A DNA stretch of 25,489 nt from positions 1 to 25,489 of IMG/VR virus record IMGVR_UViG_3300008113_000966. One strand, 5' to 3'. The position numbers were made by a program, and so were the translations under genes. The DNA comes from a virus. The notes beneath the pieces were generated by a model that saw nothing but the letters and a program-made list of their open reading frames with translations, was not told the DNA's origin and did not search any database. This document shows positions 7,131-24,776 of the stretch, piece by piece. Numbering within the stretch: position 1 is the stretch's first letter; each line of letters starts with the position of its first letter.

Positions 7131-8057
7131 ATGTCAAGTAACACTAGGCTTTATTATCCTATAGAGAAGATAAGAGGCAACCTTTCAAAAGTATCAATTA
7201 ATTCTTTTTATAAGGTAGCTTTCCCCCTAAGCAATCGTAGTGGCGCTGCGCCAGGATTGGTTAGTTGGTTGAAGAGTGCTGGAATATACGATACAAAAGA
7301 TACTAACGGTTTAGATCCTTTAGAAGCAATTGAATTGATGTGCTCTGGAACAGTTCTTCCAGGCCCAAATTTTAAAACCACAGATACCATTGGTAACAGA
7401 CAAGGTATTATTGAAAAGTATCCAATCTTACGTCAGTATCCAGAACTGACAATGACATTTTATGTAGATACTAATCATAAAATCATAAGATTCTTTGAGG
7501 AATGGATTAATTTTATTAACCCATTGTATTCTGGAACTGGAGTTGTACAATCAAGTTCTCAAGGACAAGATTATCCTGTGGCAGGAAACGAAAATAATTA
7601 TACCAAGTTTAGATACCCCAATGAATATTGTCAGAGGGTGATGGTAACTAAGTTTGAAAGAGATTTGAATACTAAGACAACCTCAGGAAATGAGACCACA
7701 GTATTCAATAGTTCATACTTAACTTATGAATTTATTCAAGCATATCCATCTAACATTATTGTATCTCCAGTAAGTTATCAGTCGAGTGAGATCTTGACAT
7801 TTACAGTCAACTTCAACTATAGTAGATACGTTGTTAGAAGAAATCTATCTGCTGCTGCAGTGTATGAAAGCCAAGCAACTGTTCCAGATCTTGCAGTTCA
7901 AGATGCTTTGAATGGTAATACAATCCCATCAAGTTTAGGTTCTTATGGGCCTGCATTTGATACCGATGAAGAAGCTGATAGGCAAAGAAGAATCTTGGCA
8001 GGAGAAACCGTTGATGGAGTTTATGGAGACAACAACCTACCTTCATTACCTCAATAA
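7131..8057 (+). CDS. gp54: gp54-like baseplate/tail-tube initiator
   Basis: A 308-aa protein with tail-tube-fold features: an N-terminal 'SINSFYKVAFPLS' strand, then TIGNRQGIIEKYPILRQYPELTMTFYVDTNH (the long hairpin region seen in gp19/gp54), 'FFEEWINFINPL' (the conserved helix, as in T4 gp54 'MQDWVNAVEDP'), and a C-terminal 'LTYEFIQAYPSNIIVSPVSYQSSEILTF' closing strand. T4 gp54 (320 aa) caps gp48 and starts tube polymerisation. gp48 is encoded just across the divergent promoter. The last 50 residues are glutamate/glycine-rich and extend past the domain. The main tube protein gp19 is an alternative, but the baseplate context favours gp54. Confidence 0.65.
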   Translation: MSSNTRLYYPIEKIRGNLSKVSINSFYKVAFPLSNRSGAAPGLVSWLKSAGIYDTKDTNGLDPLEAIELMCSGTVLPGPNFKTTDTIGNRQGIIEKYPILRQYPELTMTFYVDTNHKIIRFFEEWINFINPLYSGTGVVQSSSQGQDYPVAGNENNYTKFRYPNEYCQRVMVTKFERDLNTKTTSGNETTVFNSSYLTYEFIQAYPSNIIVSPVSYQSSEILTFTVNFNYSRYVVRRNLSAAAVYESQATVPDLAVQDALNGNTIPSSLGSYGPAFDTDEEADRQRRILAGETVDGVYGDNNLPSLPQ

Positions 8058-8080: not shown

Positions 8081-8806
8081 ATGCCTTTACCAGAAATTAC
8101 TGTACCTCATTTTGAACTTGTTCTTCCATCAAATAAAAAGAAGATTAAGTTTAGACCTTTCATTGTGAAAGAAGAGAAGCTACTTATCATTGCATTAGAA
8201 TCTAGAGATCCTAAACAAGTTACCACTGCAATTAAACAAGTATTGTCTAATTGTATCTTGACTAAAGGAATCAAGATTGATGAACTTCCTTCATTTGATA
8301 TTGAATATTTGTTTTTGAATATTCGTGCCAAAGCAATTGGTGAAGCGATTGAATTGAACATCACCTGTGGTGATGATGGTGAAACCAAAGTTCCAGCAAC
8401 TTTGTATGTTGATGAAATTCAAGTTCAATATCCTGAAGGTCATACTGACAAAATTAATATGGAAAATGGATATCATTGGAAGATGAAGTATCCATCACTA
8501 AGTCAGTTTATTGAAAACAATTTTGATGTTTCAGATAAATCATCAGAGAACGTAGAGCGTTCTGTTAAGTTGATTGCATCATGTATTGAAAGTGTTTATA
8601 ATGCTGAAGAATGTTGGATGGCATCTGATTGTACTGAAAAAGAATTGATTTCTTATGTTGAGAACTTAACTCCTCGACAGTATAAAAAGATTGAAAACTT
8701 CTTTAAGACAATGCCTAAGTTGTCTCACACACTTACAGTTGTCAATCCAAATACAGGAAAAGAAAATAGTGTCGTACTGGAGGGTTTGTCCGATTTTTTC
8801 GGCTAG
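8081..8806 (+). CDS. gp26: gp26 baseplate hub assembly protein
   Basis: A 241-aa protein of the T4 gp26 baseplate family (T4 gp26 is 208 aa). Visible features are an N-terminal strand pair ELVLPSNKKKIKFRPFIVKEEK, the 'LLIIALESRD' helix, 'DIEYLFLNIRAKAIGE', an ELNITC segment, and a C-terminal helical domain. The 'F.L.LPS.......RPF.VKEEK.LL.A.E' opening is diagnostic. gp26 assists baseplate hub assembly. The frame ends at TAG 8804-8806, inside a frameshift cassette (next entries), so two products are expected: gp26 (241 aa) and a 301-aa gp26-gp51 fusion. Preceded by a late-type promoter. Confidence 0.9.
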   Translation: MPLPEITVPHFELVLPSNKKKIKFRPFIVKEEKLLIIALESRDPKQVTTAIKQVLSNCILTKGIKIDELPSFDIEYLFLNIRAKAIGEAIELNITCGDDGETKVPATLYVDEIQVQYPEGHTDKINMENGYHWKMKYPSLSQFIENNFDVSDKSSENVERSVKLIASCIESVYNAEECWMASDCTEKELISYVENLTPRQYKKIENFFKTMPKLSHTLTVVNPNTGKENSVVLEGLSDFFG

Positions 8807-8814
8807 CCCTAGCC
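8779..8814 (+). promoter_or_regulatory. Programmed -1 frameshift signal at end of gp26
   Basis: Three parts lie in order. An SD-like GGAGGG is at 8779-8784. Nine bases later comes the heptamer T TTT TTC (8794-8800), in the correct zero-frame phase (GAT TTT TTC GGC TAG). Immediately after is a hairpin GGCTA-GCCC-TAGCC (8801-8814) that contains the stop codon. This is the E. coli dnaX-type arrangement (upstream SD, slippery heptamer, downstream stem), except that the stem starts with no spacer. Slippage joins gp26 residue Phe240 to the -1 frame. Confidence 0.8.
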
Positions 8815-8985
8815 AAAGAAGATCTTGAAACATATTTCAGGATCAACTTTGCGCTAATGCAAGTACACAAATATTCTTTAACTGAAATTGAAAACATGAT
8901 ACCATGGGAGCGAGAGATCTATCTTGAACTTCTAAAACAATACATAGAAGAAAAAGAAGCAGAGAAGCAGCAACAACATGGATGA
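8800..8985 (+). CDS. gp51: gp51-like baseplate hub assembly extension (reached by -1 frameshift)
   Basis: The -1 frame relative to gp26 is open from 8770 (TAG at 8767-8769) to TGA 8983-8985. It encodes 61 residues after the slip, starting RLALAKEDLETYFRIN, then a helix, 'YSLTEIENMIPWEREIYLELL' and a basic/glutamine tail. It has no ATG, GTG or TTG before Met at 8857, deep inside the conserved part. The 'LA...........S..EI..M.W.E...YL..L' pattern is typical of the downstream halves of frameshifted tail-assembly chaperones and of T4-like gp51, which catalyses hub assembly. The end overlaps the next ATG (8978) by 8 bases. The gp51 identity rests on position (26-51-27 order of T4) and this pattern. 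Confidence 0.75.
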   Translation, partial: RLALAKEDLETYFRINFALMQVHKYSLTEIENMIPWEREIYLELLKQYIEEKEAEKQQQHG

Positions 8986-10285
8986 AGAATCACCAAAACC
9001 ATTAAACATTAGTAACTTTTTTGGTGTACCTGATGCCAGTGGGATAACTGCTGCTCCAGGACAAACTGCAATGACTAGAACACCAGTTTTATCTGGTGGA
9101 TTGGACATGTCCAATCTTTTAAATATCATTAAGACTCAGATTAATGAGAAGCAAGTTGCTGAAGATATTGAAGACGATTCAGAAAAATTAAGATTACAAT
9201 CTCTTGTTGATAGTTTAACTGGTAGAGTAGATAAACTTACATCTGAATTATCAGGACTTTTTTCATTAATCATCGGGGACATTTCAAAGAAAGAAAAGGA
9301 ATCAAGAAGCGAAGTAAAGTTAGCAATACAAGAGCGAGCAGAAATAAGTAAAGCAACATTATTAAAATCGTTACAGCAATCAACAGAAGAAGCTGTTGTA
9401 GCAACACAGGAAATTAGAGATCAAACTGTTGCTGCTGCAGATAATCAAAGAGAAATGGGCTTGTTGGCAGCAGCACTTGGTATAGGTGGAACTGGATTCT
9501 TAAGTGGTATTGATGCTAATAAAACTGGAGATGATCTATCAGAATATACTGGTGGAGAAAAACTTTCTAATCCAGTAAAGGCACAAGAGATCTATCGGTA
9601 CTTACTATCAAAAGGTGTTAGTGAAACACATGCAAAGGGAATTGTAAACAACATACAACACGAATCTGGATTTGATTCTGGGGCAGAGGGTGATCACAAT
9701 GAAGCTGGTGAACCACAATCATTTGGTTTATTCCAACATAATATGGGAGCAGGTCGTGCTCAAAAAATGTTTGCTGCTGTTGGTACTGATTGGAGAACTG
9801 ATTGGAAAGGTCAGATAGATTATGCATTAACAGAATCGGAAATGAGGACTTACTTGAATAAGTCTTATGCAAGTCCAGCAGAAGCATCAAGAGCATTTAC
9901 AATTGATTTTGAAAATCCTCAAAATGCAGAAACTAAAGCAACTGAAAGACTAAGCACCATTGATACAGTAGATCAATTACAATCAAGTGCTGCAGAACCA
10001 TTAAAGCCAAATGAATCAGTAGCATCTGTTACACCTGATAAACCAGTTGAACCAACAATTGCTGCGATGCCAGCTAAAATTACTGGAAGAGAATTTGAAA
10101 CAGATCCTACACAGCAACAGCAAAATATGATAGCAGTTCTTCCTACAGCACAACAAGCACCATCTGCACCAGCAGCATCTGTAGCAGATGCATCTGCAGA
10201 CGCATCGAATCCAATTTTCCCTGCAGTAAATCTGATAGATCCTTATGTCAGTGCAACAAAGATCTATAACAATGTTGTTGCTTGA
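8978..10285 (+). CDS. Baseplate hub protein with phage tail lysozyme domain
   Basis: A 435-aa protein. Residues about 50-150 are a long coiled coil (SLVDSLTGRVDKLTSELSGL and a Glu/Lys-rich continuation), followed by a glycine/alanine hydrophobic stretch (MGLLAAALGIGGTGFL). Residues about 205-300 match the phage tail lysozyme domain: YLLSKGVSETHAKGIVNNIQ, then HESGF with the likely catalytic Glu229, and SFGLFQHN. The C-terminal 110 residues are Ala/Pro/Gln-rich linker. The domain cleaves peptidoglycan during tail penetration. In T4 this job belongs to gp5, which here has no lysozyme domain. The order coiled coil, hydrophobic helix, hydrolase recalls tape-measure proteins, but 435 aa looks short for a T4-length tail. 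Confidence 0.75.
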   Translation: MDEESPKPLNISNFFGVPDASGITAAPGQTAMTRTPVLSGGLDMSNLLNIIKTQINEKQVAEDIEDDSEKLRLQSLVDSLTGRVDKLTSELSGLFSLIIGDISKKEKESRSEVKLAIQERAEISKATLLKSLQQSTEEAVVATQEIRDQTVAAADNQREMGLLAAALGIGGTGFLSGIDANKTGDDLSEYTGGEKLSNPVKAQEIYRYLLSKGVSETHAKGIVNNIQHESGFDSGAEGDHNEAGEPQSFGLFQHNMGAGRAQKMFAAVGTDWRTDWKGQIDYALTESEMRTYLNKSYASPAEASRAFTIDFENPQNAETKATERLSTIDTVDQLQSSAAEPLKPNESVASVTPDKPVEPTIAAMPAKITGREFETDPTQQQQNMIAVLPTAQQAPSAPAASVADASADASNPIFPAVNLIDPYVSATKIYNNVVA

Positions 10286-12534: not shown

Positions 12535-12747
12535 ATGGAAAACATTAAAACACACATTCAAAAAGATAAAGAGATCCTTGATGATCCTACGATCTCTCCA
12601 CAGATGCGCCGCCACACGCAAGAAGAATTGCTAGATTTAGAAGCATACGCAGAGCGTCATCCTGATGATGAACATGATCCAACTCCTTTAGAACTTTACT
12701 GTGATTCAAATCCAGACGCCCTAGAGTGTAGAGTATACGACGACTGA
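12535..12747 (+). CDS. cp12: CP12-like protein, C-terminal GAPDH-binding half retained
   Basis: A 70-aa protein. The last 21 residues end PTPLELYCDSNPDALECRVYDD, matching the CP12 C-terminal motif (..FE.YC..NPE..ECRVYDD). Cys56 and Cys65 keep the exact C-x8-C disulfide spacing and the ECR-x-YDD tail that inserts into the GAPDH active site. The N-terminal cysteine pair of host CP12, used to hold phosphoribulokinase, is absent. CP12 locks GAPDH and PRK in an inactive complex and shuts down the Calvin cycle; phage CP12 is known to help redirect carbon to NADPH production. Here it sits between hub genes, one base after gp27-like and overlapping gp5 (TGATG), so it would be made with baseplate proteins. 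Confidence 0.85.
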   Translation: MENIKTHIQKDKEILDDPTISPQMRRHTQEELLDLEAYAERHPDDEHDPTPLELYCDSNPDALECRVYDD

Positions 12748-13469
12748 TGTATCTTGATCAATCCTCCAATCAATTAGTTAAGACACACTATCTTGGAAGA
12801 GATGGTTTTGTGTGGTGGCTTGGGCAAATTGCGCCATTAACCACATCAAAGTCTAATACTCAAGATTTATCTGCAAGGAAAAAAGATGCTAATCTTTATT
12901 ACAATCGTGTAAAGGTTAGAATCTTTGGTTACCACACAAAGAATGGTAGTGAACTTCCTGATGTAGATTTACCTTGGGCACATATTCTTGTACCACCTGG
13001 AGTTGCTAATGGATCTCTTGGTGAAGGTGTGTCACATGAATATACTGGAGGAGAAACTGTCTTTGGATTTTTCCTGGATGGTGATGATGCTCAACAACCA
13101 GTCATTGTTGGATCTTTATACAAAGGATCTAATGTTTCAAATTTAAAAACAATACTTGACGTACAGAAAAAACAAAGTACTGAATTCTTTGCGGTAACAA
13201 CAACTACTAGCACAGGATCACATACACAAAGAGTTGGTGATACAACTCCTGGTGGTCAGAATGTTAGAACTGGTGTTGGAAGTAGTACTGATACTGGAGA
13301 AAAACCAAAGAACAATACTGCGGGTATTGACGATAAAGCAAGAAACATCCCTGAAGATACTGATAAAGCCGATTGGTATGTTAATCTCTGGCTTGATCAC
13401 TGGATTGTTCAAACGTGGTATGAAGTATATCTTCGATCAGATATCAGAGAAACTAAACAATCTTATTAA
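12747..13469 (+). CDS. gp5: gp5 N-terminal part: OB-fold hub/spike domain
   Basis: A 240-aa frame. Residues 10-130 form the gp5/VgrG OB-fold: FVWWLGQIAPL, YYNRVKVRIFGYH, LPWAHILVPPG, GETVFGFFLDGDDAQQPVIVGSL. Residues 130-208 are a Ser/Thr/Gly-rich linker ending in PEDTDKADW. From about residue 211 the frame gives an implausible Trp-rich tail (YVNLWLDHW...) and ends at 13467-13469, while the next frame carries the expected gp5 continuation. The true switch is near 13371-13381. gp5 trimers plug the hub and carry the puncturing spike. There is no T4-lysozyme domain between OB and C-terminal regions. Either a real split, a +1 shift or a sequence error. Confidence 0.85.
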   Translation: MYLDQSSNQLVKTHYLGRDGFVWWLGQIAPLTTSKSNTQDLSARKKDANLYYNRVKVRIFGYHTKNGSELPDVDLPWAHILVPPGVANGSLGEGVSHEYTGGETVFGFFLDGDDAQQPVIVGSLYKGSNVSNLKTILDVQKKQSTEFFAVTTTTSTGSHTQRVGDTTPGGQNVRTGVGSSTDTGEKPKNNTAGIDDKARNIPEDTDKADWYVNLWLDHWIVQTWYEVYLRSDIRETKQSY

Positions 13470-14676
13470 AGATTTGTTTCCAAAGCCAAAACAAGCTGCC
13501 GCACAACAAAAAGTAAGAACTTTATTGACAACCATTTATTGTTTGTTCAAGAAATTTATTAAGAAGATATTTTCTTATGTAATTAGTCAACTGCAATCGA
13601 TGGTTGGACAAGTCTTGGGTGCAACAACATGCGTTGTAGAAAACTTTGTTGGGCAAATGCTCGGAGATCTTTTCAACTCTTTTGCAAATGCAATTGGTCC
13701 CACGTTAGATCAGCTAAGTAATTTTCTTGGTGGTGCTTTAGGGAAAGCAAATGAAATCATGACAAAGGCAATGAATATTGCTGGATTTATTAAGAGTCTG
13801 TTTGATTGTGAAAAAAGAAATTGCACACCACCACAGAAGTTCACGACAAGATATGGCCCTTCGCAGCAGCAGATAGACAACTTTAATAAGATCATGAGTA
13901 AAGCAGGAGCTGCTGGTGCTAGAAGTCTTGTTGATGATCTTAAGAAAAAGAATCCAGATCTATTTGGAGATGTTGATTTTGGATATGGCAACTGTAGTAA
14001 TGATATCTTAAGATGTGGCCCACCATCAATTCAAATTCTCGGTGGTGGTGGATCTGGTGCATCTGCACAAGCGATTGTAAATAACCTTGGTCAAGTCATC
14101 GGTGCTAGTATTTTAAATACTGGTCAAGCATACTTTGAATTGCCTTACGTTTCTATCATTGATGGATGTGGTAAGGGTCAAAATGCTAGAGCAAGGGCAG
14201 TTCTTGACAATGGAGGAGTCTCCAGAATTATTATTGATGATCCTGGATATGGTTACCTTAACAATCAAACTACACAGCAGTATGGTTCTGAAGAAGTAAG
14301 CATTCCTTCTGATGGATCTAATGATATCAATTCAAATTCTTATGTAACTGTTATTGATGCTGTTGAAGTTGACAATATTGGTAGTGGATACGATGAGAAC
14401 ACTGCTATTGTCGTTGTTCCAGGAGATAATGATATTGGTGTTGTAGATCTCCCAGAGTTTGAATTGCAATTTGGGCCAAATGGATCTATCATTGGTGTAA
14501 AGGTTACTAATAGTGGTGGTGGTTTCACACAGATACCAGAGATTCAACTAATTAGTTTAGATGGCGCAGGTGCTACCTTGAAACCAGTCTTTAGATTCAT
14601 CGAGGTAAATAAAGAAGACGCCGCAGATTTTGGTGTAGGTAGAGTTCTTAAAGTCGTGGATTGTGTTCAAAGATGA
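13378..14676 (+). CDS. gp5: gp5 C-terminal part in a different frame
   Basis: From ATG 13378 this frame gives MLISGLITGLFKRGMKYIFD and 433 residues in all. It opens with amphipathic/hydrophobic helices, then GATTCVVENFVGQMLGDLF, a Cys pair FDCEKRNCTPP, DILRCGPPSIQILGGG, and glycine-rich beta repeats (GQVIGASILNTG, SVITDPG-like 'IIIDDPGYGYLNNQ', 'VDNIGSGYDEN', 'GVKVTNSGGGFTQIPEI') ending VLKVVDCVQR. From memory, other cyanophage gp5 proteins carry this region fused in one frame behind the OB domain. The open frame extends upstream to 13234, but that part is only the antiphase reading of the gp5 linker. ATG 13378 has no good SD. It overlaps the next gene by 4 bases (ATGA). Confidence 0.8.
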   Translation: MLISGLITGLFKRGMKYIFDQISEKLNNLIKDLFPKPKQAAAQQKVRTLLTTIYCLFKKFIKKIFSYVISQLQSMVGQVLGATTCVVENFVGQMLGDLFNSFANAIGPTLDQLSNFLGGALGKANEIMTKAMNIAGFIKSLFDCEKRNCTPPQKFTTRYGPSQQQIDNFNKIMSKAGAAGARSLVDDLKKKNPDLFGDVDFGYGNCSNDILRCGPPSIQILGGGGSGASAQAIVNNLGQVIGASILNTGQAYFELPYVSIIDGCGKGQNARARAVLDNGGVSRIIIDDPGYGYLNNQTTQQYGSEEVSIPSDGSNDINSNSYVTVIDAVEVDNIGSGYDENTAIVVVPGDNDIGVVDLPEFELQFGPNGSIIGVKVTNSGGGFTQIPEIQLISLDGAGATLKPVFRFIEVNKEDAADFGVGRVLKVVDCVQR

Positions 14677-23825: not shown

Positions 23826-24776
23826 ATGAGGATTGGTATTGTTGGTGGAGGGACTGGTGGCGTTGTAACCGCTGCCAGTCTTTGTTCTCATTTGCCTAAG
23901 TGGTGTAAGGTTGATTGCATTTATGATCCAGATCTTCCCACATTTGGTGTTGGGGAATCATTGAATCATAGTTTTGTACAAGTCCTAAGAAAAGCTACAA
24001 ATTATTCAATTCCCTTTGATCTGGAAGAATCTGATGCCAAAGTAAAACATGGTATCATGTTTTCTGGTTGGACTGATAATGATGGATATATTCCATTGTC
24101 AGTTAATGGTCTTCATATGAATACATTTAAGTTGAGAAACTTTGTATTCAAAAGGTTGCACCAATTTTGGAGCCATAAATTCTCAGAAATACATGGTAAA
24201 GTTCTAGATATTTCTCAATCTCAAAACAAAGTTCAAGTAAAACTTAATGATCAAACTCTAATATATGATTATATCTTGGATTGTAGAGGTGTTCCAGAAA
24301 TTGATAATACTTATGAAATTCCAGATTCAATATCAGTCAACTCTGTAATTTTAAATATTTGTGACAAACCATGTGACTTAGATTATACTTATCATGTCGC
24401 ACACAAGGATGGTTGGATGTTTGGTATTCCTATTAATAGTAGAAGTGCTTGGGGATACCTATTCAATAGGGACATCACAGATAAAGAACAAGCCATAGAA
24501 AATTGTAGTGAGTTATTGAGAACTCATGAAATCTCAAAATATATTGATAGAGATTATTTGAGAGAAAATACAAAGATATTAGATTTTAATCATTATTATT
24601 CCAAAAAATGTGTGGATAACCGAATTATCAGAAATGGTAATAGACTTTATACATTTGAACCTCTACATGGATATGCTGTTCCAATCTTCTTAAATATCTG
24701 TGAGTTTTTCCTAGAATATATTTTTGATGATATTTCTGAAGATCGTTTCAATCAAAAATATAGAAATTTATTATGA
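23826..24776 (+). CDS. Short flavin-dependent tryptophan-halogenase-like protein
   Basis: 316 aa. FAD-binding GxGxxG is at the N-terminus (MRIGIVGGGTGGVVTAASL), followed by FGVGES at 40-45 and DAKVKHGIMFSGW at 70-82, where the family has its catalytic Lys (PrnA K79; Lys72 or Lys74 here). LDCRG (151-155) is the second FAD-contact strand. GWMFGIP (196-202) replaces the W-x-W-x-I-P hallmark, with Phe for the second Trp. YTFEPLHGYAVPI near the end matches the 'F.dPl.s.G' region. Typical halogenases are about 500 aa; this lacks most of the C-terminal half that builds the substrate site, so halogenation is doubtful and another flavin monooxygenase-like role is possible. It follows the fiber by 3 bases. 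Confidence 0.75.
   Translation: MRIGIVGGGTGGVVTAASLCSHLPKWCKVDCIYDPDLPTFGVGESLNHSFVQVLRKATNYSIPFDLEESDAKVKHGIMFSGWTDNDGYIPLSVNGLHMNTFKLRNFVFKRLHQFWSHKFSEIHGKVLDISQSQNKVQVKLNDQTLIYDYILDCRGVPEIDNTYEIPDSISVNSVILNICDKPCDLDYTYHVAHKDGWMFGIPINSRSAWGYLFNRDITDKEQAIENCSELLRTHEISKYIDRDYLRENTKILDFNHYYSKKCVDNRIIRNGNRLYTFEPLHGYAVPIFLNICEFFLEYIFDDISEDRFNQKYRNLL

Follow-up and report, generated by a model that had tools for sequence, protein, structure and literature searches.

A conserved slippery heptamer at the gp26/gp51 junction of a cyanophage-type virus and its relatives points to a programmed -1 frameshift

Introduction

In E. coli dnaX, a slippery heptamer is preceded by an SD-like motif about 10 nt upstream and followed by a downstream hairpin. 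For phage tail genes, Xu, Hendrix and Duda reportedly described, in 2004, the lambda gpG/gpGT pair and its equivalents in many long-tailed phages. Frameshifting of the G-T type is considered widespread except in T4, and stimulators are seemingly absent in certain tailed phages (2016 review, PMC5009743). In the Vandenendeviridae, e.g. Pseudomonas phage Adele, a downstream ORF that is usually annotated as separate has been argued to be a -1 extension with a poly-T site (PMC12846349). The gp51 protein of T4 is listed as an essential assembly protein of unknown function (2010 review, PMC3004832).

Tail chaperone genes in T4-like phages were assigned by Vladimirov, Gautam and Davidson in 2022 (Virology 566:9-15), as reported in passages of two later papers (PMC10885494, PMC12846349). 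According to the first of these, which cites that work, some T4-like phages encode a short gene alongside a long fused one; the second credits it with poly-T slippery sites in T4-like phages. Since these citing papers report both the short/long fused genes and the poly-T sites, the locus described below represents, as far as their wording goes, a kind of system that is already known, and its novelty is limited. An earlier sequence-only reading of this DNA had taken such a frameshift to be undescribed for T4-like gp26/gp51; going by the same passages, it is not new in kind.

Here, we analyze the gp26/gp51 junction of a virus sequence from IMG/VR. The locus shares with dnaX an internal SD-like motif, a slippery heptamer and a downstream hairpin, but the dnaX site is A AAA AAG and its frameshift yields the shorter product. 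As with lambda gpG/gpGT, it would encode a short chaperone and a longer -1 form, from a gene between those for the tail tube and the tape measure; however, the lambda proteins belong to a different family by sequence, and the locus carries T TTT TTC with an SD-like motif and a stem-loop. T4 gp26 and gp51 are likewise homologous short and long chaperones, although in T4, Aeromonas Aes012 and Shewanella Thanatos they are two paralogous genes on opposite strands rather than one gene with a slip. Adele has a poly-T site and a comparable downstream ORF that is argued to be a -1 extension, but its motif is GTTTTT and its phage family is different.

Putative slip site and reading frames

The window, that is, the whole stretch of DNA analyzed (25,489 bases; IMG/VR virus record IMGVR_UViG_3300008113_000966), is a metagenomic contig. 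It carries cyanophage-type genes: a gp32-like single-strand binding protein, PhoH, CP12 and T4-type baseplate genes. Pfam and PHROG matches place the junction in the order tail tube - gp26 - gp51 - tape-measure-like, with the following features:

7131-8057, plus strand: tail tube protein gene, adjoining gp26 upstream (PF23849, E=1.2e-14; phrog_45, E=3.1e-28)
8081-8806, plus strand: gp26 (241 aa), putative short, TAC-N-like form of the tail assembly chaperone (PF12322, E=4.8e-70)
8779-8784, plus strand: GGAGGG, an SD-like motif 9 nt before the heptamer
8794-8800, plus strand: slippery heptamer T TTT TTC, in correct X XXY YYZ phase and within the zero/-1 frame overlap
8800-8985, plus strand: gp51 part, 61 aa that a slip would add from the -1 frame, for a predicted fusion of about 301 aa
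8801-8814, plus strand: near hairpin of 5 bp found by folding, directly after the heptamer with no spacer
8804-8806, plus strand: zero-frame TAG stop, one codon past the heptamer (same spacing in 124 of 128 non-redundant relatives)
8815-8850, plus strand: longer imperfect hairpin with its core at 8821-8844, pairs mostly kept in the window's clade; probable stimulator
8978-10285, plus strand: tape-measure/tail-lysozyme-like gene, downstream and overlapping the gp51 end (PF18013, E=2.8e-14; phrog_9570, tail length tape measure, E=3.1e-11)

The gp26 protein also matches phrog_150, the baseplate hub family, over profile positions 5-232 of 282 (E=1.7e-74). The 61 residues of the gp51 part match phrog_634, the gp51 family (E=8.2e-27), as well as the C-terminus of phrog_150 (positions 236-278). 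Judged by sequence, a single profile therefore spans both parts.

Direct reading of the gp26 3' end, GAT TTT TTC GGC TAG, bore out the slippery site and its phase, along with the GGAGGG nine bases before it, all of which had been proposed earlier. A slip of -1 at the heptamer would give the reading TTT TTT CGG, in a frame that stays open from 8770 until the TGA at 8983-8985. From its upstream stop to 8857 the -1 frame holds no ATG, GTG or TTG in the window, and its first ATG, at 8857, lies within the conserved helix, as the sequence-only reading had stated. A start of gp51's own was thus rejected for the window, there being no start codon before 8857. The motif T TTT TTN occurs four times among the approximately 8,000 in-phase positions of the window's genes, with just one of the four, at 8794-8800, at a gene end. 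Because of these four occurrences, the heptamer count alone is not a sufficient test and conservation is needed.

We consider it very probable, from the comparison of sequences, that a programmed -1 ribosomal frameshift yields two forms of a tail assembly chaperone, with gp26 as the short one and a gp26-gp51 fusion as the long one. Accepting this, gp26 and gp51 would be one gene with two products. The majority of ribosomes would halt at 8804-8806 and release the short chaperone, gp26. At T TTT TTC a minority would slide back by a single base, whereupon the tRNA-Phe on UUU and that on UUC would re-pair with UUU and UUU, and these ribosomes would read on in the -1 frame to complete the fusion. 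The upstream GGAGGG and a downstream RNA hairpin would raise the rate of slipping.

Conservation of the heptamer

Relatives were gathered from IMG/VR and annotated phage genomes, giving 189 non-identical loci; a related-locus search with Vibrio gp26 as the query found no loci. In 188 of the 189, gp51 lies in the -1 frame. The gp26/gp51 junction comparison, which had been suggested as a check on the frameshift, revealed an in-phase TTTTTTN within the zero/-1 overlap in 186 of these 188, almost always with a single codon between it and the stop. Since the sequences share ancestry, counts over loci do not represent independent events.

Synonymous constraint was evaluated over 158 columns in a set of 131 non-redundant gp26 sequences, mutually below 90% identity. 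The second Phe codon of the heptamer (F240) is TTC in 126/128 sequences, although just 31% of the Phe codons are TTC (log10 P -61); F240 is the most extreme synonymous outlier of all the columns. The first Phe codon is TTT in 129/129, and the codon before it ends in T in 129. The GAG codon of E234, which forms part of the SD-like motif, is likewise one of the four columns under the strongest constraint. Strong synonymous constraint was found, unexpectedly, near the gp26 start as well, at residues 3, 12 and 13 (window 8087-8119; TTA; GAG TTG).

The heptamer is kept among relatives down to approximately 25% protein identity, and its rare variants stay slippery (T TTT TTN): TTT TTT in phiM19 and Ochrobactrum OC, TTT TTA in RHph_I1_18 and TTT TTG in RHph_I1_9. 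In RHph_I1_18 the zero-frame stop lies farther downstream, yet T TTT TTA is found at the same protein position.

A sequencing error or a decayed gene might also be considered, the source being a metagenomic contig whose gp5-like gene is split over two frames. However, the same arrangement recurs in 188 loci and in finished phage genomes such as P-SSM2 and S-PM2, and these finished genomes refute an explanation whose probability we regard as negligible.

Upstream motif and downstream RNA structure

Upstream of the heptamer, an SD-like motif (GGAGG, GAGG or AGGA) is present in 94 of 128 relatives. For RNA structure downstream, the null model was a gp51 frame recoded at random with synonymous codons. 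The RNA past the heptamer in the window has a folding energy of -19.0 kcal/mol, as against -6.7 for the synonymous-codon controls (z -5.2). Across relatives the mean z was -2.44, with p<=0.05 in 67% of loci; a control stretch 60 nt deeper in gp51 had a z of -0.01. When 50-nt folding windows were moved along the locus, the mean z was -2.45 directly after the heptamer and between -0.8 and +0.1 elsewhere. Taken with the heptamer in 186/188 loci and TTC in 126/128 sequences, this RNA signal (z -2.4) makes the comparative evidence strong for the dnaX-style -1 frameshift into a start-less gp51 that the sequence-only reading had put forward.

The longest stem in relatives mostly starts 4-8 nt past the heptamer, which is the usual spacing of a stimulator. 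One stem register (positions i+j=42) is 66% paired, compared with 27-46% when slid, and other strong stems occupy the same place in other clades, e.g. in S-PM2 and S-H34. A single stem common to all relatives was rejected, because only 43/124 share the main register and the other clades differ.

The near hairpin at 8801-8814 had been proposed as part of the signal. It exists, with five base pairs and an unusual zero-length spacer. In the window's clade, however, three of the nine sequences have lost two of these pairs, leaving it unsupported as a conserved stimulator, and the hairpin at 8815-8850 is better kept in that clade. Since the longest stem of relatives usually begins farther on, the near hairpin is probably not the main stimulator. 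The stem spacing in the window itself is atypical.

The run of six Ts might instead be taken as a site of transcriptional slippage, which would give mixed mRNAs. Transcriptional slippage usually needs runs longer than six, so T6 is below the usual length; moreover, the fixed codon phase, the upstream SD-like motif and the downstream stem suit ribosomes rather than RNA polymerase. We therefore hold this explanation to be extremely improbable.

Start codons of gp51 and exceptional relatives

Some start codon is found within nine codons of the slip in 78 of 128 relatives, and gp51 could thus also start independently there. In the other 50, no ATG, GTG or TTG occurs within that distance. Termination-reinitiation at the gp26 stop or shortly past it could give gp51 as a protein of its own with no frameshift, and many relatives do have an ATG two bases past the stop or TAATG/TGATG overlaps. 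Nevertheless, the window and those 50 relatives have no such start, and 70 of the 71 early ATGs in relatives have no SD. Reinitiation also leaves the invariant T TTT TTN and the downstream RNA structure unexplained, and the long fused form is present in T4. On balance, this alternative is very unlikely.

A combination of the two routes in some relatives, with a frameshift fusion plus a small independent gp51 wherever there is an ATG, is less improbable, though still doubtful. The heptamer occurs together with TAATG or TGATG in Vibrio 6E35.1a, Stenotrophomonas Yut3 and Sinorhizobium phiM19. In contrast, the ATG column holds Leu or other residues in many lineages, and so the ATG may only encode a hydrophobic residue. 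Such a combination is compatible with the frameshift explanation and is inapplicable to the window.

Phages with their own gp51 start and no heptamer had been named as evidence against the frameshift. Cases of this sort were encountered only at the edges of the set: S-SCSM1, Vibrio D531 and the Ackermannviridae. S-SCSM1 (L141, 2490-2530) retains T TTT TTC, and an 11-nt insertion after its gp26 stop introduces a stop in the -1 frame; its gp51 begins at a separate ATG, which might reflect a genuine decoupling or an error in the sequence. Vibrio D531 has gp51 in the -1 frame with TAATG and no good heptamer. In the Ackermannviridae PhiSH19, 3M and phiA8-29, a gp51-like ORF follows gp26 in the -1 frame without a good heptamer, at the following places:

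L148, after 3241: gp51-like ORF
L160, after 3262: gp51-like ORF
L159, after 3244: gp51-like ORF

None of these three phages has an ATG at the gp26 stop junction, where ATT or ATC replaces the ATG of other phages. The gp51-like ORF is unannotated in PhiSH19 and 3M. One further locus, L110, has a gp26 C-terminus unlike that of all relatives, without the heptamer; it is possibly an error or a recombinant.

T4 gp26 and gp51

Residues 1-201 of T4 gp51 (249 aa) match PF12322 (E=3.9e-52), and the protein spans phrog_150 from 13 to 280 of 282, while T4 gp26 spans only 14-235. The gp51 proteins of Aes012 and Thanatos likewise consist of a gp26-like domain and a gp51 tail. Given the full-length coverage of phrog_150 by gp51, these three phages carry the short and the long form as two genes. 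In an alignment of T4-type gp51 with the fusion, there is no gap at the slip junction. The T4 gp51 profile matched the diverse alignment A1 with E 3e-7 (prob 93), more weakly than in the Pfam and PHROG scans.

The sequence-only reading had placed T4 gp51 in the frameshift class. It does not belong there: gp26 and gp51 are separate genes in T4, and gp51 has a gp26-like domain of its own. T4 itself does without the frameshift: its gp51 combines a complete paralogue of gp26 with the gp51 tail. Two full-length genes of the T4 type are absent in the window, which has one gene with a -1 extension instead.

A tree of the shared domain, whose root is not fixed, sets the T4-type gp26 and gp51 rows apart from all others with moderate support (84/84). 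This separation would fit one duplication in the T4 branch. We give an even chance to a history in which frameshifting is the arrangement common to T4-related phages outside the T4 branch and the T4 branch swapped it once for a duplication of gp26. The phages meant, under the same joint estimate, are the Kyanoviridae and the rhizobial, Vibrio, Pseudomonas and Stenotrophomonas T4-like phages, in which T TTT TTN would have been kept and lineage-specific RNA stems rebuilt. If the duplication in the T4 branch is true, the known T4 exception would be a derived state.

Proposed chaperone role and annotation

Like lambda gpG/gpGT, the gp26/gp51 pair would serve as the tail assembly chaperone, which would hold the tape measure protein and recruit parts of the tail tube or hub. 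Both the position of the genes and their homology to the T4 pair suggest this putative role. An AlphaFold model of gp26 had a pLDDT of 83.7. Compared with the PDB, the match with the highest probability listed was 2ob9_B, the HK97 tail assembly chaperone (0.69, but with E=1.0), and the likeness of the predicted fold to HK97 gp13 is only suggestive. Searching the gp26 profile against PDB sequences returned chance-level matches only.

With a programmed frameshift, gp51 in marine cyanophages would be the terminal part of a second form of the chaperone and not a free catalyst. The annotations of some cyanophage genomes shorten gp51 or leave it out. It has no annotation in DSL-LC03, and in Ochrobactrum OC and S-CREM1 the annotated gene begins inside the conserved part. 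The locus offers a well-defined frameshift signal that is testable with a reporter.

Other genes of the window

The gp5-like hub/lysozyme gene is split over two frames at 12747-14676, with homology switching frame at about 13363-13412; in DSL-LC03 it is a single gene of 719 aa. The split in the window is either an assembly error or a broken gene. The CP12 gene, which encodes a cyanobacterial carbon-metabolism regulator, lies at 12535-12747 within the baseplate gene cluster. A tryptophan halogenase-like gene is located at 23826-24776 (PF04820, E=7e-21).
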